Assembly: GCA_016169945.1 (NCBI GenBank)
Contig: JADLSH010000333.1
Coordinates: 496,001 to 560,000, forward strand
DNA length: 64,000 nt
Origin: Trachythela sp. YZ-2020
Lineage: Eukaryota > Cnidaria > Anthozoa > Malacalcyonacea > Clavulariidae
Reading direction: 5' to 3'
Positions 119-10,411 of the stretch are shown piece after piece (the stretch's first letter is position 1; every line of letters starts with the position of its first letter). The notes under the pieces were generated by a model. The model worked only from the letters and a program-made list of their open reading frames with translations. It was not told where the DNA came from and did no database searches. Both the position numbers and the translations under genes were made by a program.

Positions 119-576
119 AGTCAAGTTCATTCTCAAGTTCAGGTTCTTGAATTTTTTTAGTCATAATCTGACAACAACATATGCAAGAGTGTTGGTTTAA
201 ATCCTTTTTTTCTCTCATTTGAACAATACAGTCGGTGTGAGCGTACGAATTACAATAGTTCAACATAACCTCTTCGATGCCGCGCTCGTCGTTTTCATAT
301 TTTTCTAAACATATAGCGCAATAATCATCATACGCAATATGAAACGCTACACGACACATTCCGCATTCCGGATCTAAATTGTCAGCTTCGCGATATCACC
401 ATCGCCCATTTCTCCAGACATATAACATGACACGTATGTCCGCAGCACCACATTGTCAAACATGAAAATTGATCTTTAGCTATATCTTCGAGACAAAAAT
501 AACATTCGCCTCCTTTTTTCGCTTGCGATAGACATCCGAAAAGACTTGCGAAAACAGTCGGCTTATCCGTCATCAT
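117..576 (-). pseudogene. Double RING-finger protein gene, frameshifted
   Basis: Two overlapping minus-strand frames together look like one gene. The first frame (576 to 382) carries CYFCLED and CCGHTCHVICLEKW, the first part of a RING-H2 finger. It then runs into a stop. The second frame, open from upstream of its ATG at 359, begins with DPECGMC, which supplies the missing CxxC of that RING. It continues with a second Cys/His finger (CAICLEKYE, then NSYAHTDC, then CICC). RING proteins are usually E3 ubiquitin ligases, and many large DNA viruses carry them. The break lies at about 380-400. A less likely reading is two separate small genes. Confidence 0.55.
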
Positions 577-802: not shown

Positions 803-882
803 GGTGTACACACACACCGCTAATATATTCACTGTTGTGTTTCTTTAAAAAAAGAAAAACGGGTTAGATTCCTGTTAATATA
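803..882 (+). ncRNA. T-arm-like structured element, copy 1
   Basis: A GGTGT/ACACC hairpin (803-818) precedes a closing stem TATATT (824-829) pairing with AATATA (877-882). Inside lies CACTGTTGTG, then an A/T hairpin TTTCTTT/AAAGAAA, then a stem AACGGG/CCTGTT (858-876) with loop TTAGATT. The last hairpin abuts the closing stem, as a tRNA T-arm abuts the acceptor stem. Four other copies share this layout with compensating stem changes. RNA expression is inferred. Confidence 0.55.
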
Positions 883-1032
883 CCTACAGTATATATACAT
901 TTGCATACGGTAGCACGCATTCCAGACATCTTTTAAATGTTACCGTTTGTGCTTTCCTAATTTTTTTAGGAGCTTTAACGCTCCGCGTCTATACTCGCTG
1001 TTGCGTCTCCTTAGGAGAAAACAGGTTTTATT
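883..1032. other. Non-coding spacer with hairpins
   Basis: No gene is seen here. The stretch contains the hairpin GGAGC/GCTCC (about 969-984), the palindrome CTCCTTAGGAG (about 1007-1017), and a TATACT...GGTATA pairing around CGCTGTTGCG. It vaguely resembles the structured elements but lacks their T-arm hairpin. Confidence 0.4.
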
Positions 1033-1879
1033 TCAGGATGGTATAAGAAAAACATATACATTCTTCATATTATTTACATCATAAATACTAGCTTCGCCGT
1101 ATAAATGAGTATCTCTATCAACAATCCAACCGTCTATGTCTATTATATGTGTTATACTATTTAATATTTCGTTTCTATTTTCTTCAATATAACTCCATTC
1201 TTCGTCGCATAACTGCGTAGGGTTTTTTCTCACAAATGCTGTACGCTTTCTCCGTGTTCATATCCGAACTTAGGAGGTTTTTTTCAATTTTTTGAACCGT
1301 CGTACAGGGCCGGTCCTCCGCTTCCAATTCTTTCAGAGTTTTTGGTTCGATATATTTATATTCGTATAGAACTTTGCTTATACAATACAATTTGATAGCG
1401 TCGTTTTTGTTTAACGTGTCTTTATATTTTTGTTGTAAAAATACGCGCCAACTCTTCTCGTTACATGCAAAGTTTTGTGATAATATTATAAAAAAACCTT
1501 TTCCATAACTATATAATGTGGATATTTTTTCATGTGGGTTATATATATTCGGTTGTTTAACATTTTTAAAAAACCTATATAAAAACTGCACGTCGTTAAA
1601 TATTTTCTTATCTATATAATAATAACAGTATTCGTCAAAAATTGTAAAAACATAGACGGGTAATACGGTATAGAACGGTGTTTGAGCTCCACTAGATATA
1701 ATAACTAGCTGATGAACTTTAAAATAATCGGTAATCTCAATTTTGCCAGTTTTTTTACATATACTTATACAATCTCGGATGTCTTTATAGTTTAAAAAAA
1801 CCCTTTCTATCAGATAAGTACGATTTAGAACTACTTTCAAAAAGGGTTTATAAGGTAATGGTTTTAATAATCCCGTCAC
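1033..1879 (-). pseudogene. Unknown virus-region gene, frameshifted near 1240
   Basis: A 231-codon frame (1879 to 1184) is rich in Tyr, Phe and Lys and has no motif I recognise. Near its end, around 1240, the reading shifts into a second frame that stays open to 1033. That frame encodes an acidic stretch ending in NVYVFLIPS. The two overlap in a way typical of a one-base indel, so I read one gene of about 280 residues with a single frameshift. Two independent genes are possible. It points the same way as the RING gene, and 300 bases of spacer lie between them. Confidence 0.45.
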
Positions 1880-2007
1880 ACGTAAAGAACATATGTCAAC
1901 TTTCGAGTTAATACTTGATCCATATCAAGGCTAAACGGTTCCGCATCGTGATCGTTATAAGCATTCTATAAAAATCAAAAACTATTTTAGAATCTAGAAA
2001 ACAAAAA

Positions 2008-2182
2008 TAGTTTCAACATTCCGTGTCTGCATGTGTTAAAACCCCCATATATGGACGTTTTAAATCTCATTGGTCAGATCTAAAAAATCAAAAATCGTTT
2101 CAACATTCTGTTTGTGTGTGTATGTGTTAAAACCGCCATATATGGACGTTTTAAATCTCATTGGTCAGATCTAAAAAATAAA
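2008..2182 (+). promoter_or_regulatory. Tandem promoter-like repeat with two CArG/CCAAT modules
   Basis: An approximately 90-bp unit is present twice. Each copy has TTTCAACATTC, a TGTGTTAAAAC segment, the perfect CArG palindrome CCATATATGG (2045-2054 and 2136-2145), a GACGTTTTAAAT linker, CTCATTGGTCAGATC with an inverted CCAAT box, and a TAAAAAAT tail. It lies 180 bases upstream of the plus-strand gene at 2348, suggesting its upstream control region. CCATATATGG could equally serve as a TATA-like element. Control function is inferred. Confidence 0.6.
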
Positions 2183-2347
2183 ATCGTTTTAAACTTTCCT
2201 TACTATATCAACATAAGACATTATCTTATTAGCCAATCGTGTCGCTGTATTTTTTCTAAAATAAGGATAAAAAAAGAGTTACTACAGTGTAAGAATCATT
2301 CGTACTCAAACACAATTACAAAACAGTGTTAGCAAAATATTTTCACA

Positions 2348-2998
2348 ATGGATGACTACTCTTTAAACAACGACGAGGAGGACGATATACCAAAAGCTCT
2401 ACAGGACTTATTATGTAAAGAAAAAAAATTAAAAGAAAAAATAAATAAAATGCATCGTGGCGATAAAAGAAAAAATAAAGAATCGGTAATTACATCGAAC
2501 AAGAAACCCAAAACGACCGCCGTCATTCCCAACATTGTACAGAAGAACAATGATATAGAAGCGGCAACGGCTCTTTTATTGAGTTTAAATCCGTCTAACG
2601 ATGAAAATTACGATGATTTTCTAATCCCTCCACAAACTCCTCTATCCAATTATCAGTTTGAAGAACCTCCGCTGTTTCTAAACACTCCGCCTCCACCTCA
2701 AATATCATTCCTCAACGCCACAGAAGCACCGAATCGTCCCGACGTCATGCAACAAACATTCACTCCGAGTCCACCTCAAACTCCTCCTCAAACATTCCTC
2801 AACGCTACAGAAACGGCGAATCAACCCAACATTACGCAACAAACATTCGCACAACACCTAGCTGTAGAAACGATCGCACACACGCCTATTACAATTCCTT
2901 CAACATCCATGTACGTACAACAACAACCGGCTGCAGTCGCACACCCATTATCATTCCAGATTTCTCGCACGAGACAAATTCAACATCCATGTACGTAG
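2348..2998 (+). CDS. Acidic then Pro/Gln-rich protein, 216 aa
   Basis: The frame opens with an acidic start (MDDYSLNNDEEDD), a Lys-rich helix-like segment (residues about 25-60), and a nuclear-localisation-like KKPK. From about residue 90 it becomes Pro, Thr and Gln rich, with repeated short units around FLNATE and QQTF. This composition suggests a nuclear regulatory or scaffold protein, but I recognise no family. Tandem CArG/CCAAT modules lie upstream. It overlaps the next ORF by 10 bases, and a 17-bp direct repeat (2901-2917 and 2981-2997, period 80) covers the overlap. The two ORFs may be one gene broken by a small duplication. Confidence 0.6.
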   Translation: MDDYSLNNDEEDDIPKALQDLLCKEKKLKEKINKMHRGDKRKNKESVITSNKKPKTTAVIPNIVQKNNDIEAATALLLSLNPSNDENYDDFLIPPQTPLSNYQFEEPPLFLNTPPPPQISFLNATEAPNRPDVMQQTFTPSPPQTPPQTFLNATETANQPNITQQTFAQHLAVETIAHTPITIPSTSMYVQQQPAAVAHPLSFQISRTRQIQHPCT

Positions 2999-3498
2999 CA
3001 GAAAAAACCACTAAACCAAAAAAAGTAAAGAAACCACGAAAAAGTTCGAGTAAAGGTAAAAATCTTGAGCAATATTCGAAAAACGTGTTCGACGAACTAT
3101 ATCATCAAAACTTAATAGACAGTAACAATACATATATAAACGAAAATAACGAAGAATCACACTTTGACGAAGACATCGACCCCTACGAAACAGCTGTCGA
3201 ATTAGACGAAGTGTTAGACTTAAAAACTGTCGGCGCTCGAGCAAAAATTATGTACGTACAAAAAAAAGACCACAAAACCAAATGTGAATACAATATACTA
3301 ACACAGAACAAAACAACTGCCGAATATATAGTTCATAGTAAATTAGCGTACGATGCCATGAAAGGTGTAGCTATAGTATTAAAAAAAAAGGTATTAGAAC
3401 GTGCAAAACTCTCTAGAGATTGTCAAATTTTAAGTAAAACTTTAAATAACATTCATCAAATGTATATTCGTCACGAAAAGGCAAAAGCCGATAAATAA
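2989..3498 (+). CDS. Lys-rich unknown protein, 169 aa
   Basis: The first ATG sits inside the second copy of a 17-bp direct repeat, just before the stop of the previous ORF. The N-terminus is strongly basic (KPKKVKKPRKSSSKGK), like a nuclear or nucleic-acid-binding tail. An acidic middle (residues about 50-75) and a predicted helical C-terminus follow. The upstream ORF reads the first repeat copy in the same register as this ORF reads the second. The 80-base duplication is not a multiple of three, so it would break one original frame. I do not recognise the family. Confidence 0.6.
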   Translation: MYVAEKTTKPKKVKKPRKSSSKGKNLEQYSKNVFDELYHQNLIDSNNTYINENNEESHFDEDIDPYETAVELDEVLDLKTVGARAKIMYVQKKDHKTKCEYNILTQNKTTAEYIVHSKLAYDAMKGVAIVLKKKVLERAKLSRDCQILSKTLNNIHQMYIRHEKAKADK

Positions 3499-3602
3499 TT
3501 TATGTGTATATATTACGGTTTTTATATAATTATTCAATGTTTTTGTTTATAATAATAATTATTCACTGCGTTTTACTTGTTTTTGTATCGTTTTTTAATA
3601 AA

Positions 3603-3929
3603 TTATAACCGATCTTTCTCCGGCTCCATATATCTTGTACCGACCAAAGTTATTGTATCTTTACATACATAACATCCCCAAGTTATTCTTACATAACCTT
3701 CCATAGCGCGAAAATACATTTCAATTTTGTTCTTTATTTTATCAAACGTATATGTTGCCAAGTGTGTAGAAAGCCGACCATCCTGTACTACACCGTCACT
3801 ATCTCTTGTAAAACACGCCATAACTTTTATTTTATATCCACAACTATTACAACGAACGCTATATTCTTTAATATCTAATTTAAAAAATTCAATAAAAACT
3901 AATTGTGTGTCCACACCTACTAACTCCAT
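3603..3929 (-). CDS. Small zinc-ribbon-like protein, 108 aa
   Basis: Two CxxC pairs stand out: RCNSCG at residues 27-30 and WGCYVCKD in the last third. Together they could hold one zinc ion. The rest is beta-like and unremarkable. It is transcribed leftward, 28 bases downstream of the gene at 3957-4553, in a run of four minus-strand genes (5923 to 3603) that could share transcripts. Its 3' end faces the 3' end of the plus gene ending at 3498. The family is unknown; a DNA/RNA-binding or transcription-related role is a guess. Confidence 0.55.
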   Translation of the reverse strand: MELVGVDTQLVFIEFFKLDIKEYSVRCNSCGYKIKVMACFTRDSDGVVQDGRLSTHLATYTFDKIKNKIEMYFRAMEGYVRITWGCYVCKDTITLVGTRYMEPEKDRL

Positions 3930-3956
3930 GTTCGTTTTTTCACTGCACGATTTTAT

Positions 3957-4553
3957 TTACACGTCTTTTATACTCTCCTCTAATCTAGCACTTTTACGTT
4001 TTCTATTCTCCCCTACGGTTTTTTTAAATTTGTCTTGATATCGTTCAAGCGCAGCGTCATAATTAAACACCATATCTACAAACGGTTCAATATTTTCGTC
4101 TGCTAAAACCAACATCAATTTCCAATCATATCGCATAGATTCGTTCATCTTCTCATATTGCATCACCACATCTTGATTTACAGTACTCATTGCCAATAAT
4201 TCGTACGTAGAAAGCGAAGTATGTGTGTAGAATTTTATACGTGAATCATCGAGAGATTCGGGCAGCTCGACAATCTCTTCAGATAATAAATCTTCGTCAT
4301 CTTTCTCCTCCTGCTCACTTAGAATGCCATGAAAATGAACTCTTTTATTCACCTCGTTTCCCATCATTTTAGAACACGCATTAGAACTGTGACGGTAGAT
4401 TATAAAGAAAGAACATGTGTCAATATAAGGTGTATATTTAGTAAGTTCGTCACAGGTCAAATTAATTTCGCGAATATTAGTGCACGGTAATGTGGGACCG
4501 GCAGGACGGAAAAAATTCTCTTCGGCATATCGTTTTTTGTTACAAGACAACAT
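3957..4553 (-). CDS. Unknown virus-region protein, 198 aa
   Basis: This is an intact frame starting MLSCNKKRYAEENFF. It has an acidic central stretch (EEKDDEDLLSEEIVELPESLD, about residues 80-100) and a basic tail (GENRKRKSARLEESIKDV) that resembles a nuclear localisation signal. I recognise no family. It lies 24 bases downstream of the preceding minus-strand gene and 27 bases before the next one, so the cluster is compact. The intact frame and absence of introns fit a viral rather than a host gene. Confidence 0.55.
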   Translation of the reverse strand: MLSCNKKRYAEENFFRPAGPTLPCTNIREINLTCDELTKYTPYIDTCSFFIIYRHSSNACSKMMGNEVNKRVHFHGILSEQEEKDDEDLLSEEIVELPESLDDSRIKFYTHTSLSTYELLAMSTVNQDVVMQYEKMNESMRYDWKLMLVLADENIEPFVDMVFNYDAALERYQDKFKKTVGENRKRKSARLEESIKDV

Positions 4554-4577
4554 TTCGCATTCAAAAAAGTTAAACGT

Positions 4578-5171
4578 TTAAAGCACTGGTAAGTGCTTCA
4601 AAGCTTTTATAGTTTTTTCGCTCTTTAGATAACGTAGTACCGTATAAATCATTTTATGATAAGTCTCTGGAATATTTTCTTGAAAAACACTGTCGCCATA
4701 CGCACGTATTATTATTCCCATTAAAGACGTAATATTTGTTTTACTACCAGATAACGGATTTAAACACATCGATGTCCGTTGCCTAAACTTAGTAAGCCAA
4801 ACGCCAAAAACATCCTCTTTTACTATAAACACATTTTGTACTTCAACAAATCTTGGTTTATCTTGAAAATATATGTATATATCGGAGAATATATAAAAAC
4901 AAATATAAAACAATCCCTGAAATTGATGTGTAAAATATCGTTGTATTATATCGCAATTTTCCTCTTTTATTTTTCGAGTATTTTCAGGATTTTCCTCCAA
5001 AGTAAACGGGAGATCTTTTTTATGTATAACTAATAAATACAGCGATGAGTCATCTTTTGGAAAACCAGATTGAAAATAACGTATATCAAACTCGATACTT
5101 TTTTTCACAATCTCTTTCACCGCATAAACGTAATCAAAAAGACCGTCGTCAACAGAACTATAGCGTGCCAT
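4578..5171 (-). CDS. Unknown virus-region protein, 197 aa
   Basis: This intact frame starts MARYSSVDDGLFDY and is rich in Phe, Tyr and Ile. A hydrophobic, aromatic stretch at about residues 83-105 may be a buried beta region or a membrane-associated segment. I recognise no motif. The next gene upstream (5923 to 5302) also starts with MAR, has similar composition and about the same length. The two could be diverged paralogues, but this is a visual impression only. Confidence 0.55.
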   Translation of the reverse strand: MARYSSVDDGLFDYVYAVKEIVKKSIEFDIRYFQSGFPKDDSSLYLLVIHKKDLPFTLEENPENTRKIKEENCDIIQRYFTHQFQGLFYICFYIFSDIYIYFQDKPRFVEVQNVFIVKEDVFGVWLTKFRQRTSMCLNPLSGSKTNITSLMGIIIRAYGDSVFQENIPETYHKMIYTVLRYLKSEKTIKALKHLPVL

Positions 5172-5301
5172 TTTGTAATAAACATAAAAAATCCTCGTGT
5201 TTATATAACCTACCTCAAAATCTTTCCACTTTCCTGTATATCCTTCTTGCGATCGTATCCAAAATCTATCGTTGTAGTCTTTTAATAATAACGAATAAGG
5301 A

Positions 5302-5923
5302 CTAATCTAGTTTATTATTCTCATCTCTTTTTAAAATCTTATTTTCGTCTGCATATCTGACAATTTTACATATCAAACTTAAAAAAAATTTCTCTTTCTT
5401 TTCCGGCACGGTGACGTACATAACACAGTTTATAAATTGATCGTGCAGCATTTGTTCAAAATGTTCATCATCCTGCTCAATTTCTATAGAATCTTTTAAT
5501 ATTTCCGTATCGCTCACATAATAAACGCGTAAATCTCCATGTATATGATGAAACGCAAATGAAAAATTTTCGGGAAGCACTTTTTTTAAATAACTGTTAA
5601 CATTATCACAATAAAACATTTTATTCTCCTCGTCAGGAATGTATGGAAAAAGATCGTATTTTTTACAAAATATTTTCTCTTCAAAATCTTTTCTATAATG
5701 TAATATATCCATCCACATAATACACATCATATCGTTATTCCATTTTCCCGCCATATTTTGCAGATATATACAATGATATTCGTCGTAAATTTTCACTTAT
5801 ATACGTGTTTTTATCCTCAAAATTACAAAACGGAATTCTAATCATGCTTTCATAACCTATAAAATAATTCACACCGTATAAAATAGTCATAAAATTATAA
5901 AAGAAATATCTTAGCCTAGCCAT
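5302..5923 (-). pseudogene. Unknown gene, possible paralogue of its neighbour, frameshifted
   Basis: A 62-codon frame starts MARLRYFFYN at 5923 and stops at 5735. A second frame opens at 5796 and runs to 5302, giving 164 codons rich in aromatic and acidic residues. The 62-base overlap of two incomplete frames suggests one gene of roughly 200 codons with an indel around 5740-5800. The length and MAR start match the neighbouring 197-residue gene. A plus-strand gene starts just 50 bases away (5973), so the interval is probably a bidirectional promoter. Confidence 0.45.
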
Positions 5924-5972
5924 TTAAAAAAACATATAAATATCAAAAAACAAAACACCGTGCATAGGAGAT

Positions 5973-6329
5973 ATGGAGACCATACGTAAAACTGCTCAAA
6001 TCGTTATAACAAAAATCGGTCCTGTACCTCAGCAACCGCATAAACCGGTATATTTTTATAGAACAAATGTTGGCGATCATTTCTCATCTTATGAGAATAG
6101 TATTGAGAAAGCTTGGGGCGTATATATAGGTAAAAAAATGCAAAAAAACTGTAGCGGTAGATGTGATTGCGAAAAATGTATCCTTCAGGAAATGCAAATA
6201 TACGAAGAAATACAACATAATAATGAAAAAGAAAGACTAGCACGGTTACTAAACGAAAAGCTAGCGGTTAAAGAAAAAAGGTTAAAAGAAAAGACGGTTG
6301 TTGAAATTGTTGATAATGGAAGCAGTTGA
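5973..6329 (+). CDS. Unknown protein with Cys cluster and coiled coil, 118 aa
   Basis: This intact frame has a central Cys cluster (NCSGRCDCEKC, about residues 59-69), which may bind zinc. A charged helix of Glu, Lys, Arg and Leu follows (about residues 70-110) and is likely a coiled coil. It is divergent from the minus-strand gene starting at 5923. No family is recognised. The short spacing fits compact viral gene packing. Confidence 0.5.
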   Translation: METIRKTAQIVITKIGPVPQQPHKPVYFYRTNVGDHFSSYENSIEKAWGVYIGKKMQKNCSGRCDCEKCILQEMQIYEEIQHNNEKERLARLLNEKLAVKEKRLKEKTVVEIVDNGSS

Positions 6330-6640
6330 AAAAATATATAGTAAAAAACAATGATGATTTGCAAAAATACATACAGTCTTTAATAGTTATGCGCTGTATC
6401 AAATAGAAGATTATAATTAAAAAATGTTTATTTTTTTGCATTTTTCATTTTACATTTTAATTCGTACAATATTATCTTAAATTTTATACTACTCTCCATT
6501 CTGTCTATATTCTTTGCTTAATTGTTCTATAGTATAATTGTTTTTTCCGTAAGTATAATAATTCTCTCGTTCCATCTATAAAAGAAATAAAAATTAAATT
6601 AAATTAAAAGAAGAGGTCGTATTAGCAGGTTTATCTGTGT
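6330..6640. other. AT-rich spacer
   Basis: I see no gene or repeat here beyond short AT runs (TTAAATTAAATTAAA near 6590). It separates the gene ending at 6329 from the array of tiny basic ORFs. Confidence 0.5.
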
Positions 6641-6721
6641 ATAAAATCCGAACAACGCAGTGCAGGATTTTGGACTAAAGCTGAACTTGTACACACAATA
6701 AATAATACCCACAATAAATAA
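6641..6721 (+). pseudogene. pX-like mini-ORF remnant a
   Basis: A short open stretch without an ATG reads EQRSAGFWTKAEL and ends at 6719-6721. The Q-R-x-A-G-F core matches the K-Q-x-G-G-F motif of the following mini-ORFs, so this looks like a decayed first member of a tandem family. It is too short to be convincing alone; the neighbouring copies give it weight. Confidence 0.35.
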
Positions 6722-6738
6722 AGTGTTTAAACCATAAG

Positions 6739-6939
6739 ATGAGAAGAAAAAGAACCGTACAATGTCGTCGTCCATGACGTTCTTATAAAAAAAAACAACG
6801 AGGCGGATTTTTGGTCCGTATGATGAATTCGCTTATAAGAAACGGTGCTAAAGCTGGTATGCGGTTAAAGGGTCATGGTAGTGAATACGATAAACGAATA
6901 AATAAAGAGTTCCCTCATTCTAGCCGTCTAACCGTCTAA
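6739..6939 (+). pseudogene. pX-like mini-ORF b, in-frame stop
   Basis: The frame starts MRRKRTVQCRR, meets a TGA at 6775-6777, and stays open in the same frame to 6937-6939. After the stop it encodes SYKKKQRGGFLVRMMNS and then a basic, Gly-containing segment. This is an Arg/Lys-rich start, a Q-R-G-G-F motif and a short, less charged tail. Adenovirus-type pX (mu) core precursors have that layout, with protease cleavage near a GG. The relationship is by layout only, and this copy is broken by the stop. Confidence 0.45.
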
Positions 6940-6959
6940 TCGTATATTAAAAAAATAAA

Positions 6960-7109
6960 ATGTATAAACAACGATCAAGTAAAAAACGTTCTCGACGCAA
7001 ATACAATTACCACAATTCTGGAATGATTTCGTCCAATCGTAAGCGAAAATATAAGCAACGTGGCGGTCTTTTTGGCCTAGTACCTCTTCTATTGTCCCAA
7101 GTGCTATAA
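6960..7109 (+). CDS. pX-like mini-ORF c, 49 aa
   Basis: This intact ORF has a very basic N-terminal half (SSKKRSRRK, then NRKRKYKQR), the motif Q-R-G-G-L, and a hydrophobic C-terminus (FGLVPLLLSQVL). A basic part, a GG motif and a hydrophobic tail fit a small virion core or membrane-active peptide of the adenovirus pX type. The stop codon lies at the start of a 13-unit 9-bp repeat that follows directly, so the original C-terminus may have been changed by repeat expansion. This is the best preserved of five tandem relatives. Confidence 0.5.
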   Translation: MYKQRSSKKRSRRKYNYHNSGMISSNRKRKYKQRGGLFGLVPLLLSQVL

Positions 7110-7216
7110 GTGCTATAAGTGGTATAAGTGGTATAAGTGTTATAAGTGCTATAAGTGTTATAAGTGCTATAAGTGCTATAAGTGCTATAAGTGCTATAAG
7201 TGCTATAAGTGCTATA
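7100..7216. repeat. 9-bp tandem repeat, 13 units
   Basis: The unit AGTGCTATA is repeated without gaps, with a few units reading AGTGGTATA or AGTGTTATA. It begins at the stop codon of mini-ORF c and ends just before remnant d. Because the unit is a multiple of three, it creates spurious long antisense frames made of Leu-Ile-Ala. Confidence 0.9.
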
Positions 7217-7230
7217 TATCCTGTCAAAAT

Positions 7231-7281
7231 AAAAATATTATCGTTATAAAAAAACAACACGGTGCGGGATTTGTGGACTAA
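7231..7281 (+). pseudogene. pX-like mini-ORF remnant d
   Basis: Downstream of the 9-bp repeat, an open stretch reads VIKKQHGAGFVD and stops at 7279-7281. KKQHGAGF is the same as in mini-ORF e and close to KKQRGGF of b. The 5' part seems to have been replaced by the repeat. Confidence 0.35.
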
Positions 7282-7283
7282 AA

Positions 7284-7455
7284 ATGAGAAGAAAAAAAAC
7301 GTTCTAAAAAAATGAAAGGCTGTTCTTTATATCGTGAACAATATTTAGACAATCTAGGAATCTTCTCAAATAATCGTCGAAAACTATTATCAAAAAGGTA
7401 TAAAAAACAACACGGAGCAGGTTTTTGGAATAACTTATTTAGTAAAAAACGATAA
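7284..7455 (+). pseudogene. pX-like mini-ORF e
   Basis: An ATG at 7284 gives MRRKKTF and then a stop, matching the start of copy b. A second frame from the ATG at 7312 runs 47 codons and contains KKQHGAGFWNNLFSKKR before its stop at 7453. The start and the motif-bearing part are in different frames, so this copy probably has a one-base indel near 7300. Alternatively the 7312 ORF is used as it stands. Confidence 0.4.
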
Positions 7456-7485
7456 AATGGAACTTTCAATATACCTCGTGGTCTC

Positions 7486-7719
7486 GTGGCAAAACGTGTT
7501 AAAAAATATGAGAATCTTCTAGAACAAAAAGAGAAAATGGCTACGTCTATACCGTCACCAATCTATCATCATTACGTAAAAGATCAAGTAAAGAAAATTG
7601 AACACAAACTATTCGAACATAGAATAAAACATGAATTTGAAGAAGAAGGTTTAATCGCTTTCTACAATGTTATATATAGAAAAGATAAATTCATTTATGT
7701 GTCAAAATTTATTTACTAA
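7486..7719 (+). CDS. Lys/Glu-rich unknown protein, start uncertain
   Basis: The frame is open from 7456 to 7719 and encodes a helical, charged protein with a likely coiled coil (KRVKKYENLLEQKEK) followed by IYHHYVKDQVKKIEHKLF. The first in-frame ATG is at 7537. The open upstream part, with similar composition, suggests the real start was lost or lies in another frame: an ATG at 7457 is out of frame. It follows the pX-like array directly. The function is unknown; a small virion component would fit the position. Confidence 0.4.
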   Translation: MAKRVKKYENLLEQKEKMATSIPSPIYHHYVKDQVKKIEHKLFEHRIKHEFEEEGLIAFYNVIYRKDKFIYVSKFIY

Positions 7720-7750
7720 TAAATTATACAAAATCTGTTTTTGTTTTTTA

Positions 7751-7826
7751 TTTATACATACAGGAATCTAACCTGTACAAATAAGAGTGCTACAGCATGT
7801 ATATTTGACGAGTTTTTTAAAAACTC
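7751..7826 (-). ncRNA. T-arm-like structured element, copy 4 (minus)
   Basis: Read on the minus strand, a perfect palindrome GAGTTTTTTAAAAACTC-type hairpin (7826-7810) precedes a closing stem TATACA (7803-7798) that pairs with TGTATA (7758-7753). Between them lie GCTGTAGCAC and a hairpin TACAGG/CCTGTA with loop TTAGATT (7777-7759). The hairpin abuts the closing stem exactly as in the other copies. It sits between two convergent genes. Confidence 0.55.
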
Positions 7827-8009
7827 TTACAAAAATTGATAAATAACAATAGGCGATTTAAACACTTTGAAATTCTGATCGTTCACGCGCATCTCACACG
7901 CTTATATACATACGGACTAATAAAAATCACTACCCCAATGTCGCGGTAATTTTCTATAATCTTCGTCGCCGTTATCACAACTACCGTCTAATAATAGAAA
8001 TTTTTTTAT

Positions 8010-8434
8010 TCATTTTTCACAAAAATCATATCTCATCAACGTGTCCGATATTGTAGTAATATAAAATTTCTCTGAGAACACTTGTTCGATCATGGTTTTG
8101 ATTTTTACAACGCTTCGTCTTCCATCGCACTCAAACAATATCCAATAACGTCGCGTATCATTCACTTTTAAAGTATACAACGGGAGTACGCGAACGGTTT
8201 CAAAAAGATGCTTCTTTCTTGTTTAAAATTCTTCCCCCATTCGTCGGCTATTAATTGTATCACGCCGCCGTTGTTAACGTCTACATACTCTGCATGTTTC
8301 ACATCCAATATAATCTCATAACCGTCAGTTCTGTCTTTCTCCATTTTTAATTTTTTATTTCTACATAGTGTCTTATATAAGGTAAAAAATATTTTTTGAT
8401 TTTTTAGATTACGGCTACGATATTGTTTCGTCAT
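8010..8434 (-). pseudogene. Unknown virus-region gene, frameshifted near 8200
   Basis: An 88-codon frame starts MTKQYRSRNLKNQK at 8434. At about 8200-8215, around a run of five A, the reading moves to another frame that stays open to the TGA at 8010-8012. That frame carries ORF-like sequence such as RYWILFECDGRRSVVKIK. This is most simply one gene of about 140 residues with a one-base indel. No family is recognised. Confidence 0.4.
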
Positions 8435-8526
8435 CTTTTTCCTTGGACGAACAATAAAATTTTTATATCTTAAGTAGATCTGTAGTAGTCAGTAATGCTC
8501 GAGCTAATTGTCAAGTAATTTTTTAA

Positions 8527-8608
8527 GGGTTTTTAAAAAACCCACACACATATATACCTACTGTCGTGCTTTGTAAAAAAAGAACAGGTTAGATTCCTGT
8601 TGGTATAT
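8527..8608 (+). ncRNA. T-arm-like structured element, copy 2
   Basis: A palindromic hairpin GGGTTTTT/AAAAACCC (8527-8543) leads into a perfect 7-bp closing stem ATATACC (8552-8558) with GGTATAT (8602-8608). The interior has TACTGTCGTGCT, a small CTTT/AAAG hairpin, and AACAGG/CCTGTT with loop TTAGATT (8583-8601) abutting the closing stem. GGTTAGATTCC matches a pol III B-box (GGTTCGANTCC) except at one conserved position. Confidence 0.6.
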
Positions 8609-8694
8609 AAAATATCTCCTATATAACCGAAGTGCATTCGCTTATTCATAATTCAGTAAACTATCAGCAAATCACTTTTCAATTTTTGCATAAA

Positions 8695-8768
8695 GGGTTC
8701 TCACAAAACCCCACACACACGCTGTCGTGCTTTTTTTAAAAGAAAAGGTTAGATTCCTTTTTGTATGT
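8695..8768 (+). ncRNA. T-arm-like structured element, copy 3
   Basis: The upstream hairpin is GGGTT/AACCC (8695-8711). The closing stem ACACACA (8713-8719) pairs with TGTATGT (8762-8768) with one mismatch. Inside are GCTGTCGTGCT, a CTTTT/AAAAG hairpin, and AAAAGG/CCTTTT with loop TTAGATT (8743-8761). The stem differs from copies 1, 2 and 4 by paired changes. Confidence 0.55.
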
Positions 8769-8811
8769 AAATTTATAATCATTTTTAAAAAATTTTCACT
8801 ATCTAACACAT
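8757..8811. repeat. 55-bp direct repeat, left copy
   Basis: CTTTTTGTATGTAAATTTAT and the following AATCATTTTTAAAAAATTTT are repeated almost exactly at 9616-9670. The pair flanks the promoter repeats and the repeat-protein ORF (9066-9443) as a direct repeat about 860 bases apart, as if the gene cassette had been inserted or duplicated between them. Confidence 0.7.
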
Positions 8812-8826
8812 GTACACGACACATAT

Positions 8827-8990
8827 TTTGTTAATGATAGTGTAAGTGTACAGAAGATATATTTTGCTGTCTATATATGGTCATCTTAAGCCTCATTGGT
8901 CAGATTAATCTTGTTAATAATAGTGTAAGTGTACAGAAGATATATTTTGCTGTCTATATATGGTCATCTTAAGCCTCATTGGTCAGATTA
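8827..8990 (+). promoter_or_regulatory. Tandem 83-bp promoter-like repeat with two modules
   Basis: Two nearly identical 83-bp units each carry TGTAAGTGTACAGAAGATAT, the CArG-like CTATATATGG, a TCATCTTAAGC linker and CTCATTGGTCAGATTA with an inverted CCAAT box. They lie just upstream of the plus-strand ORF at 9066. The module is the same as at 2045-2171 and 1-35, while the surrounding unit sequence differs. Promoter function is inferred from position and repetition. Confidence 0.6.
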
Positions 8991-9065
8991 AATTTATTAG
9001 TGTGAGTAAGAGATCAGAAATCTTCCCAACACATAGTTACAAGTTATAGCTTTCAATACAACAGC

Positions 9066-9443
9066 ATGGATAAACGTTTACCCAAGACAAGCAGTACCTA
9101 TCTCGCCGACAAGAAATATCTCGATATGCAAGCGGCATGGTCTCGAGCCGACAAGAAATATCTCGATATGCAAGCGGCATGGTCTCGAGCAGGGATCTCA
9201 AGTGAGAATAAGAAGAGCTTTCAAAACAACAACATGGATAAACGTTTACCCAAGACACCAAGCCGTATCTATCTCACCGACAAGAAATATCTCGATATGC
9301 AAGCGGCATGGTCTCGAGAACGGATCTCAAGTGAGAATAAGAAGGAGTCATGGTCTCGAGCATGGTTGGAGGGATTAAAATATTCACACCTATACCCACC
9401 ATCATCATCGGAAAAACCCCGACACCCAAATATCCTGCCTTAA
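9066..9443 (+). CDS. Internally repeated basic protein, 125 aa
   Basis: The ORF is built from repeats. The unit DKKYLDMQAAWSR occurs three times, and a larger block starting MDKRLPKT and ending in ISSENKK occurs twice. The C-terminus ends HLYPPSSSEKPRHPNILP. The protein is Lys/Arg rich with amphipathic helical repeats. A tandem promoter-like repeat lies upstream (8827-8990) and AATAAA signals lie at 9565-9577, so this looks like a complete transcription unit. No family is recognised. The DNA repeats are almost identical, so the expansion is recent. Confidence 0.55.
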   Translation: MDKRLPKTSSTYLADKKYLDMQAAWSRADKKYLDMQAAWSRAGISSENKKSFQNNNMDKRLPKTPSRIYLTDKKYLDMQAAWSRERISSENKKESWSRAWLEGLKYSHLYPPSSSEKPRHPNILP

Positions 9444-9564
9444 TATCTTCAAGTCATGCATTGAAGAAGAACAGCATTATTCGAGAAGAACAATTTTAAC
9501 GAACAGTTTGCAGCATATAAACTGTAAATTAAGACCTATATCGCATAAGTATATAAACAAAAAC

Positions 9565-9577
9565 AATAAATAATAAA
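9565..9577 (+). terminator. Overlapping polyadenylation signals
   Basis: Two AATAAA hexamers (9565-9570 and 9572-9577) lie about 120 bases downstream of the repeat-protein stop codon and fit cleavage and polyadenylation of that gene. Confidence 0.45.
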
Positions 9578-9615
9578 GAAAATCTCCTGTAATTGATGTG
9601 TCTTAGTATGGATTT

Positions 9616-9670
9616 CTTTTTGTATGTAAATTTATAATCATTTTTAAAAAATTTTCACTATATAACACAC
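9616..9670. repeat. 55-bp direct repeat, right copy
   Basis: This is the second copy of the sequence at 8757-8811, with few differences. It lies just past the polyadenylation signals of the repeat-protein gene. Confidence 0.7.
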
Positions 9671-9772
9671 GTACGCGTTTTCTTTCACAGATTTTGTAAA
9701 AGCTTAAAGTGATCGGAGTTCTTGGCCGAAATTCTTAACTACCCGAGGTTCTTTACAACCCCCAATTTTTTT

Positions 9773-9853
9773 GCGCACACGCGCGTTCGCATACACATAC
9801 CGGCGTGCTCGCGCGAAGGTTCGACTCCTTCGTGTGTATCCACGCGTGTGTGC
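9773..9853 (+). ncRNA. T-arm-like structured element, copy 5 (GC-rich, canonical T-loop)
   Basis: An outer stem GCGCACACGCG/CGCGTGTGTGC (9773-9783, 9843-9853; one mismatch) encloses a perfect 7-bp stem ATACACA/TGTGTAT (9791-9797, 9833-9839). Inside are TACCGGCGTGCT and a 6-bp hairpin CGAAGG/CCTTCG with loop TTCGACT, the standard tRNA T-loop. GGTTCGACTCC is a full pol III B-box match. Order and abutting stems equal those of copies 1-4, but the base composition is very different. Confidence 0.55.
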
Positions 9854-10411
9854 CTACTCATCCCACGCGCATCCAATTACCGTCTACGTCACGACCGTAA
9901 TACAAATGCCAACAAAGCGCCAACGAGACTGTTCACCCCATTTTGGCAGCCATTTTGAATGCTAATTTGATTTCTACACCCCCCGTCCGTGGAGGCCTTT
10001 TTTTGATGATTATGCTCTTTTTTTAAATATTATTTCGCAATAATTACTATAGATTATTAGGCGTTCTCAAAAAAATATTCACACCCCCCCAAAAAAAAGT
10101 GGTATCCAATACATAATACTACTCATATTAATATTAATGGTATTTGGTGCATTATTGCTCTACTTGTTGCCAATTCAGTTGAAATAAAATTTCGTTATGT
10201 TATGAATAGGCAAAAGAATAATAGCGTTGCACTAGTGTTACAAGACGTTTTATTTACTAAATTTCTATCAGAACACTTAAATTAAAAAGTCATGGCAAAA
10301 TGTTACTTTTTCATTATGCAAAGTTTTTATTACCAAGAATGCCTATATACAGCATAACGTCCTTATACAGCTGCGTACTAGCAGAGTGTAACCTTTGTAT
10401 ATGACATAACT
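9854..10411. other. Non-coding stretch at the edge of the virus-like block
   Basis: I see no gene. Homopolymer runs (CCCCCCC followed by A8 near 10085) and AT-rich sequence are present. The right boundary of the virus-like region is probably between 9.67 and 10.4 kb, but I see no clear terminal repeat. Confidence 0.4.

Follow-up and report, generated by a model that had tools for sequence, protein, structure and literature searches.

The contig JADLSH010000333.1 of the anthozoan Trachythela sp. YZ-2020 carries, within the 64,000-nucleotide (nt) stretch that was analyzed (the window, C126:496001-560000 of the 578-Mb genome, where C numbers denote contigs of the genome and L numbers loci), a family of minimal transfer RNA (tRNA)-like elements, five of them intact and one decayed. 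The elements have a tRNA-like RNA fold that is under selection, they typically follow a TATA box, a T tract and a hairpin, and they very probably belong to an endogenous virus of the Maverick/Polinton type. The overall explanation that we consider best, with a probability of roughly 0.5, is that these units are genes for viral small RNAs made by RNA polymerase II (pol II), whose 3' ends would arise through RNase P cleavage at a tRNA-like element that is itself disposable. The initial annotation of the window had reported four of the copies as structured elements resembling the T arm of a tRNA; that observation is confirmed and is larger than first reported, and the interpretation given with it is partly supported.

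tRNA-like elements in the window

The four copies first described, at 824-882 (c1), 8552-8608 (c2) and 8713-8768 (c3) on the plus strand and at 7753-7803 (c4) on the minus strand, were all found in place together with their stems, including the closing stem of c3, which has six of seven pairs and one C-A mismatch. In our delimitation c1 spans 823-883, with the acceptor at 824-829/877-882, the D arm at 830-839, a hairpin in the middle region and the T arm at 858-876, and c4 spans 7752-7804. A fifth intact copy, c5 (9791-9839, plus strand), had been overlooked and was found via a match to the T core with two mismatches. Searching with a covariance model built from c1-c5 picked up further members: a decayed sixth copy with a damaged T arm, c6 (989-1046, plus strand; E 0.064), which has intact relatives at L131:243 and L166:297, and a copy, L180 (E 1e-14), that lies towards the opposite end of the same element. 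A descriptor requiring at least six of seven acceptor pairs, an abutting D arm of 3 base pairs (bp) with a 4-nt loop N-G-N-N, a 6-bp T arm and the loop TTNRANN matched five sites on the two strands of the window, compared with a mean of 0.04 and a maximum of 1 in 150 dinucleotide shuffles (4-kb blocks). As a separate observation, a segment made up of the 3' portion of the T arm of c3 and ~60 nt downstream of it (8752-8818) has a duplicate 859 nt further on, at 9611-9677, with 94% identity and the rest of the element absent.

The D and anticodon arms had both been described as absent. For the D arm this was wrong, as all five intact copies have one of 3 bp with a 4-nt loop that abuts the acceptor directly (CAC-TGTT-GTG, TAC-TGTC-GTG, CGC-TGTC-GTG, TGC-TGTA-GCA and TAC-CGGC-GTG). 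The clue to it came from phage tRNAs that combine a CTGTNG D loop with a TTAGATT T loop: CTGTNG holds G18 and T19, and T19 is able to pair with A56. The absence of an anticodon arm holds, since the middle region measures only 3-22 nt across 55 copies in the genome, and such an arm is thus not required.

Covariation of the stems and the elbow pair

In the tRNA elbow, according to the passage cited here (PMC4810234), residue 56 of the T loop pairs with residue 19 of the D loop. The T loop had been thought to be invariant (TTAGATT), but it varies in c5 and across the genome, and does so jointly with the D loop. The c5 copy has CGGC as its D loop and TTCGACT as its T loop, giving G19 with C56 as compared to T19-A56 in the other window copies, so that the pair changes on both sides even inside the window. 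Among 55 non-redundant copies from the genome, selected without use of this pairing and with A19 allowed, positions 19 and 56 were T-A in 46, G-C in four, C-G in two, G-T in one and unpaired in two; standard pairs of four kinds were therefore present in 53 of the 55. One of the two exceptions is a register artefact (L235) and the other a real A-C mismatch (L213). The same columns in an alignment of 33 copies read T-A 25, G-C 4, C-G 2 and G-T 1. When the D arm was left free in the search pattern the elbow was Watson-Crick at 25 of 29 places, mismatched at one (L217) and unfolded at three, and when copies of the c5 class were sought with a pattern that omitted the D arm, fold and elbow were both kept at 17 of 22 places (14 G-C, two G-T and one C-G). 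The C-G elbow was reached in two separate classes: in the TGCC/TTGAATT class (C24, C79, C385 and C182, the last with base 18 changed), and within the c5 class at L197, where both elbow bases are replaced (G-C to C-G).

For these counts, copies more than 88% alike were collapsed, the class of L217 counting once. Sites resembling host short interspersed elements (SINEs) and the repeat family of C33 were removed before the 55-copy set was formed, and the 33-copy set left out sites with unlisted T or D loops and excluded A19. In the alignment of the 33 sequences (32 distinct; MAFFT), the share of paired cells was 95.8%; it fell to 81.0% when columns were shuffled and to 24-61% when the alignment was slid, and the covariation score was 0.460 against 0.177 in shuffles, a value reached by none of 500. 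In the 55 copies, which had been selected for at least five of seven acceptor pairs, pairs 3-7 were formed in 52-55, pair 2 in 50 and the outermost pair 1 in 36. The frequent opening of the outermost pair indicates a working acceptor stem of ~6 bp, which with the 6-bp T arm makes ~12 bp. A 12-bp acceptor/T stack is typical of tRNA. The acceptor/T stack, the D arm and the 19:56 elbow of a tRNA-like fold are thus all present, although D-arm pairing and G18 were themselves selection criteria and so are not independent evidence. Selection on RNA structure, as initially proposed, is strongly supported by the covariation of the stems together with that of the elbow. The cruciform DNA that had been offered as an alternative is disfavored, as the covarying 19:56 contact is tertiary and has no meaning in a cruciform.

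Across the genome the T core with at most one mismatch occurs at 1501 and 1602 places, compared with 292 and 300 for the reversed pattern, and not all of these places are units. The C33 repeat (L137-L144) is a second tRNA-like fold with the acceptor AAAATGT/ACATTTT, a hairpin CCATGC..GCGTGG and the T loop TTAGATT; part of it forms opposed arrays with a spacing of ~180-230 nt. There is no T19 in its D loop, and no T tract in the upstream flanks that were inspected. In viral contigs a DNA pattern gave at least 120 stretches, of which the best 40 sites comprised many phage tRNAs and otherwise chance-like matches, none with the layout described here, and a tighter pattern gave two matches in viral contigs and one in genome contigs, with the fold missing from all three. 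The phage loci (L021, L049, L059, L063 and others) hold tRNAs, several of them tRNA-Met, whose TTAGATT T loop and CTGTNGA D loop correspond to T19-A56 and not to G19-C56; as these contigs were picked by the CTGTNG/TTAGATT pattern and the tRNAs called by ARAGORN, the comparison shows only that the T19-A56 combination exists.

Organization of the units

The sequence upstream of the elements has a common layout. Of the 55 units, 48 have a T tract of at least five (length 5-8) between -50 and -22. AA stands before 39 of these 48 tracts, compared with 33 of the 139 T runs found elsewhere upstream (p 2.7e-12). A TATA box is present at -140 to -101 in 37 of 54 units, while four other windows of 40 nt each gave 5-13 of 54. 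In the 42 units with both a TATA box and a tract, the two are 56-114 nt apart, a range bounded by the TATA box having been sought at -150 to -90 only. Between tract and element is a hairpin whose stem varies (GGTGT/ACACC, GGGTT/AACCC, GAGTTTT/AAAACTC, GGAGC/GCTCC, GTAGGTC/GGCCTGC and GCGCG/CGCGC), and which in 18 of 29 units exceeds mononucleotide shuffles in stability (p<0.05). Where units stand in tandem, the 3' strand of the acceptor in several of them overlaps the TATA box of the next unit.

Within the window, a TATA match lies 93-132 nt upstream in all of the six units but c2, for which none was found in the 170 nt before it, and the short hairpin that each copy was said to follow was found for c1, c2, c3 and c4. 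On the plus strand, c1 has a TATA-like box at 719-729 (104 to 100 nt upstream), the tract TTATTTTTTTTAAG at 793-800 and the hairpin GGTGT/ACACC at 803-818, which also appears in the fold of the relative L124. The decayed c6 follows with a TATA-like box at 890-896 (99 nt upstream) and a T tract at 961-967; the GGAGC/GCTCC hairpin behind that tract is seen in the fold of L124, whereas the window segment's own minimum-energy fold does not show it. A hairpin after c1 (~903-955) that was considered as a possible microRNA precursor was dropped, since it falls in the body of unit c6. Unit c2 has its T tract at 8519-8524 and the hairpin GGGTTTT/AAAACCC at 8527-8543 (8519-8543 together). The next unit, c3, has a TATA-like box at 8620-8626 (93 nt upstream, with more matches at 8604-8611 that overlap the end of c2), the tract AATTTTTG at 8683-8687 and the hairpin GGGTT/AACCC at 8695-8711 (8683-8711 together). 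For c5 the TATA-like box is at 9659-9665 (132 nt upstream), the tract AATTTTTTTG at 9766-9772 and a GC-rich hairpin at 9773-9784 (9766-9784 together); L188 is the same unit in the fold test. On the minus strand, c4 has the box TATATAA at 7902-7908 (104 nt upstream), the Sm-site-like tract AATTTTTG at 7831-7835 and the hairpin GAGTTTT/AAAACTC at 7810-7826.

Host U1 genes provide a reference for these promoters. In the three that were read (L240-L242), TATATAAA lies 31 nt before the 5' end, the position of which was taken from the U1 model, and the site AATTTCTGG precedes the last stem-loop. As the host U1 genes share TATATAAA, the viral promoters are of a type compatible with small RNA genes of pol II, and applying the U1 spacing the viral RNAs are predicted to start 25-83 nt before the tract and to measure ~60-120 nt up to the tRNA-like element. 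A motif resembling the proximal sequence element, ATSATTTTT, precedes the TATA box in eight of 45 units and in none of 45 in a control window, and the columns before the TATA box hold no strong signal other than the box itself. The genome has 42 U1 matches in all, many clustered on C100 (~1.46 kb apart) and on C82.

The viral carrier

The 20 kb to the left of the window encode a family B DNA polymerase (PolB, PF03175, the viral/organellar type; E 2.2e-13, 1.5e-13 and 1e-9), an integrase-like protein (rve, E 9.6e-7, 29.4 bits, under the cut-off of 32.6), an AAA ATPase that is a weak candidate for a packaging ATPase (AAA_14, E 5.1e-5, under its cut-off) and, next to PolB, a SET-domain protein (L183:2751-3431, plus strand; PF00856, E 6.9e-7). 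No capsid families were among the Pfam matches of these general scans, which included no search aimed at capsids. Among the 120 listed of 189 PolB matches, the nearest named relatives are from the octocoral Paramuricea clavata (43-49% identical).

When 4.5-kb pieces were set at a fixed predicted distance from c5-class copies elsewhere in the genome, three of four contained this PolB: L238 (C385) at 95-97% identity, L239 (C379) at 89-100%, and L236 (C79) at 94-97% in three short pieces and 46% over 323 residues. The fourth, L237 (C11), was without it, and the 52-kb host part of the window gave no PolB matches. Finding PolB at the predicted distance from c5-class copies indicates that the units are part of a Maverick/Polinton-type endogenous virus, an assignment that is very probable. 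On C79 and C110 the c5-class copies lie ~30 kb apart and face outwards, which suggests that they mark both ends of an element. Two open reading frames (ORFs) of the window, at 4578-5171 and 1184-1879, had no match at E<=1 in protein searches, and tblastn with the ORFs at 5973-6329 and 3957-4553 and with PolB gave no related viral contigs.

Proposed 3'-end formation and alternative explanations

Under the explanation that we favor, the virus would bear several short non-coding genes, each transcribed by pol II from a TATATAA-type box. The transcript would consist of 25-83 nt, an AAUUUUU tract, a short hairpin, a few nt and then a minimal tRNA-like structure, with an acceptor of ~6 bp, a 6-bp T arm, a 3-bp D arm and a D-loop/T-loop elbow, the anticodon arm being unneeded. 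This structure would recruit RNase P, and the cut on its 5' side would form the 3' end of an RNA of ~60-120 nt finishing in the hairpin. RNase Z may cut on the 3' side, and the tRNA-like piece would be a processing signal or a by-product, as mascRNA is for MALAT1. A 3' end made by RNase P is proposed because a tRNA-like fold with an intact elbow immediately after a hairpin is the MALAT1/mascRNA arrangement, and processing of the elements by RNase P/Z is, in our judgment, likely. Of the initial suggestions, a substrate of the mascRNA kind or a processing signal is thus the best reading. The fold with its covariation, the layout of the units and the viral link are observed, whereas transcription, cleavage by RNase P/Z, Sm binding and the function of the RNA are inferred. 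Sm-class RNAs end with an AAUUUUU-type tract and a 3' hairpin, and it is on account of these two features that the RNAs are tentatively proposed to be Sm-like, with the odds slightly against that class. The tract and hairpin end would resemble that of an Sm-class small nuclear RNA such as the Herpesvirus saimiri U RNAs (HSURs).

Several results weigh against this account or limit it. The full fold was found in only 53 of 95 distinct exact T-core sites in the stretches around the first 100 listed places (sites less than 110 nt from a stretch end on the 5' side or 60 nt on the 3' side being passed over); the others were 22 sites without the full fold, some of which resemble damaged units, 16 of the C33 repeat and four host tRNA/SINE-like sites (L136, L149, L154 and L157). 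The copies are not independent of one another, five of the 22 c5-class places do not fold, and mismatched elbows occur in otherwise good folds (L213 and L217). Changes on both sides affect 11 of 17 pairs, a number that one of 500 shuffles reaches, and the 23 further pair types are reached by nine of 500. Folding of single sequences gives the full fold for c2 only; the minimum-energy folds of the copies at 824, 8713 and 7753 leave the acceptor unclosed (z -2.2, -0.4 and -1.2), so the case stands on covariation and not on energy. When whole units were folded, c3 and c5 did not surpass shuffles (z -0.16 and -0.27; two others, -2.50 and -1.68), six GC-rich c5-class hairpins are not significant (p 0.10-0.58), and four of 33 units had no usable tract in the hairpin test. 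The Sm site consensus is PuAU4-6GPu followed by a 3' stem-loop, but a G follows the tract in only 16 of 48 cases and AA in 23 of 48, and a purine is no commoner there than after other T runs (44 of 48 versus 125 of 139). Lastly, PolB and the c5 copy have one relative orientation on C126 and another at two of the three remaining loci.

The initial annotation had also raised a viral RNA made by RNA polymerase III (pol III). Such RNAs, of the TMER kind known from murine gammaherpesvirus 68 (MHV68), would use internal A and B boxes, and the tRNA-like part would form the product's 5' end. That an animal DNA virus has tRNA-like units in tandem would suit this, TMERs do have a tRNA-like 5' part and hairpins (PMC8223928), and the c5 T arm GGTTCGACTCC is a perfect B box. 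However, 50 of 55 copies have a base other than C at position 56, which belongs to the B box; the base is mostly A and shifts to C or G together with base 19, and T runs of at least five occur inside 36 of 55 elements and TTTT in 39 of 55 cores. The conserved hairpin is upstream rather than downstream, and a T tract separates the elements from the TATA boxes, which lie ~100-140 nt upstream. Since the tract and the internal T runs would halt pol III and base 56 is not kept, pol II is the likelier polymerase and pol III transcription improbable. It is also unlikely, in our view, that the element is retained as the mature 3' end, as in the tRNA-like ends of plant viruses, where it would protect the RNA or bind a tRNA-handling protein, with tract and hairpin forming a separate protein site. 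Any tRNA-binding protein would need the elbow and acceptor/T stack that are conserved across the classes examined, but the acceptor is weak and AU-rich with its outer pair closed in just 36 of 55, CCA follows only c5 among the five window elements, and the acceptor 3' strand enters the next TATA box in several tandem units.

A further possibility, to which we likewise give low weight, retains the 3'-end signal but replaces the Sm site with a U-A-U triple helix between the upstream U tract and the A strand of the hairpin, as in the MALAT1 expression and nuclear retention element (ENE). Many units do read like U6-AAGGG-U5-A5-CCC; the c5-class and L161-type hairpins, on the other hand, have no A tract and still keep the U tract. 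A cruciform DNA element acting, for example, in replication or integration would accord with the outward-facing c5-class pairs on two contigs, which look as if they lay near element ends, but the 19:56 pair, a tertiary contact, and T54 and A58 in the T loop belong to RNA and have no role in a cruciform, making this very improbable. Least credible of all is an origin as host tRNA-derived repeats or as chance hairpins in AT-rich DNA: the four host tRNA/SINE-like T-core matches are of that kind, yet the compensatory changes at secondary and tertiary pairs contradict it, and the chance expectation of 0.04 per window, the common layout of TATA box, tract and hairpin, and the link to viral genes speak against it.

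Comparison with known systems

The 3' end of MALAT1 is processed by RNase P at mascRNA (PMC12016569, passage cited). The favored reading, RNase P cleavage of viral pol II RNAs, resembles MALAT1/mascRNA and NEAT1/menRNA in that a reduced tRNA-like structure follows a U-rich and hairpin region and that the proposed cut would give a pol II RNA its 3' end. It differs in being viral, in the several copies per element and in the short units with their own TATA box, and structurally in the 3-bp D arm with its 4-nt loop, a middle region down to 3-4 nt and the swapped elbow pair. Rfam gave no mascRNA-menRNA or tRNA match at the elements, with only five and eight weak matches (E<=10) in 7600-10000 and 600-1200; those over c4 (PreQ1, E 2.1) and c5 (mir-3149, E 4) are chance-like. 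ARAGORN called no tRNA at the window elements. Compared with tRNAs, the elements share the T arm, the T-loop rules, the ~12-bp stack and the elbow, but have no anticodon arm or anticodon and no linker between acceptor and D arm, and their T arm is 6 bp and their acceptor 6-7 bp.

HSURs have an AUUUUU-type tract and then a 3' stem-loop, to which the units here bear a likeness. As viral Sm-class U RNAs they are also several small genes in one virus, the predicted size here being ~60-120 nt. In the cited passage their 3' ends are made by Integrator at a signal resembling the 3' box (PMC9006982), whereas here the end would probably be made by the tRNA-like signal, and the tract is often without a following G. 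The TMERs of MHV68 are likewise viral tRNA-like units; they are described as pol III RNAs with the tRNA-like part 5' and microRNA hairpins after it (PMC8223928).

Other features of the window

A promoter-like block is repeated near the starts of viral ORFs, at 1-31 and 86-116 on the minus strand and at 2046-2079, 2137-2170, 8875-8905 and 8958-8988 on the plus strand; it holds the CArG-like CCATATATGG or similar and the CCAAT-like CTCATTGGTCAGAT. The region 6740-7455 (plus strand) encodes several very small basic peptides whose motifs are of the KKQ[RH]G[GA] type and which recall the adenovirus core peptide pX; a 9-bp tandem repeat of AAGTGCTAT and variants lies at 7072-7243 within this region of small basic ORFs. 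An ORF at 2348-2998 (plus strand) has near its N terminus the motif LLCKE, of the LxCxE type known from pRb-binding viral proteins. A cysteine-rich, RING-finger-like gene at ~150-571 (minus strand) is apparently interrupted.

Significance

In the literature on Mavericks and adintoviruses, including those of corals, no report of tRNA-like or non-coding RNAs was found in what were mostly titles and the openings of abstracts, and nothing of this kind was found in abstract openings and cited passages on viral RNAs resembling small nuclear RNAs or tRNAs. We tentatively suggest, while regarding the full combination as less probable than its denial, that the Mavericks of animals possess a multigene family, all their own, of Sm-class small RNAs made by pol II and processed by RNase P and not by Integrator through a U tract, a hairpin and a minimal tRNA-like signal. 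If true, Mavericks/Polintons would have a family of non-coding RNA genes, and the way in which MALAT1 obtains its 3' end from mascRNA would have a viral counterpart. The arrangement would also constitute a previously undescribed 3'-end system, in which the freely covarying elbow would show what a substrate of RNase P needs. In tRNA, according to the cited passage, the elbow is recognized by RNase P through stacking and by RNase Z through a flexible arm (PMC4810234); the natural series of 19:56 swaps (T-A, G-C and C-G) would make the role of the elbow in recognition by RNase P and RNase Z testable with natural variants.

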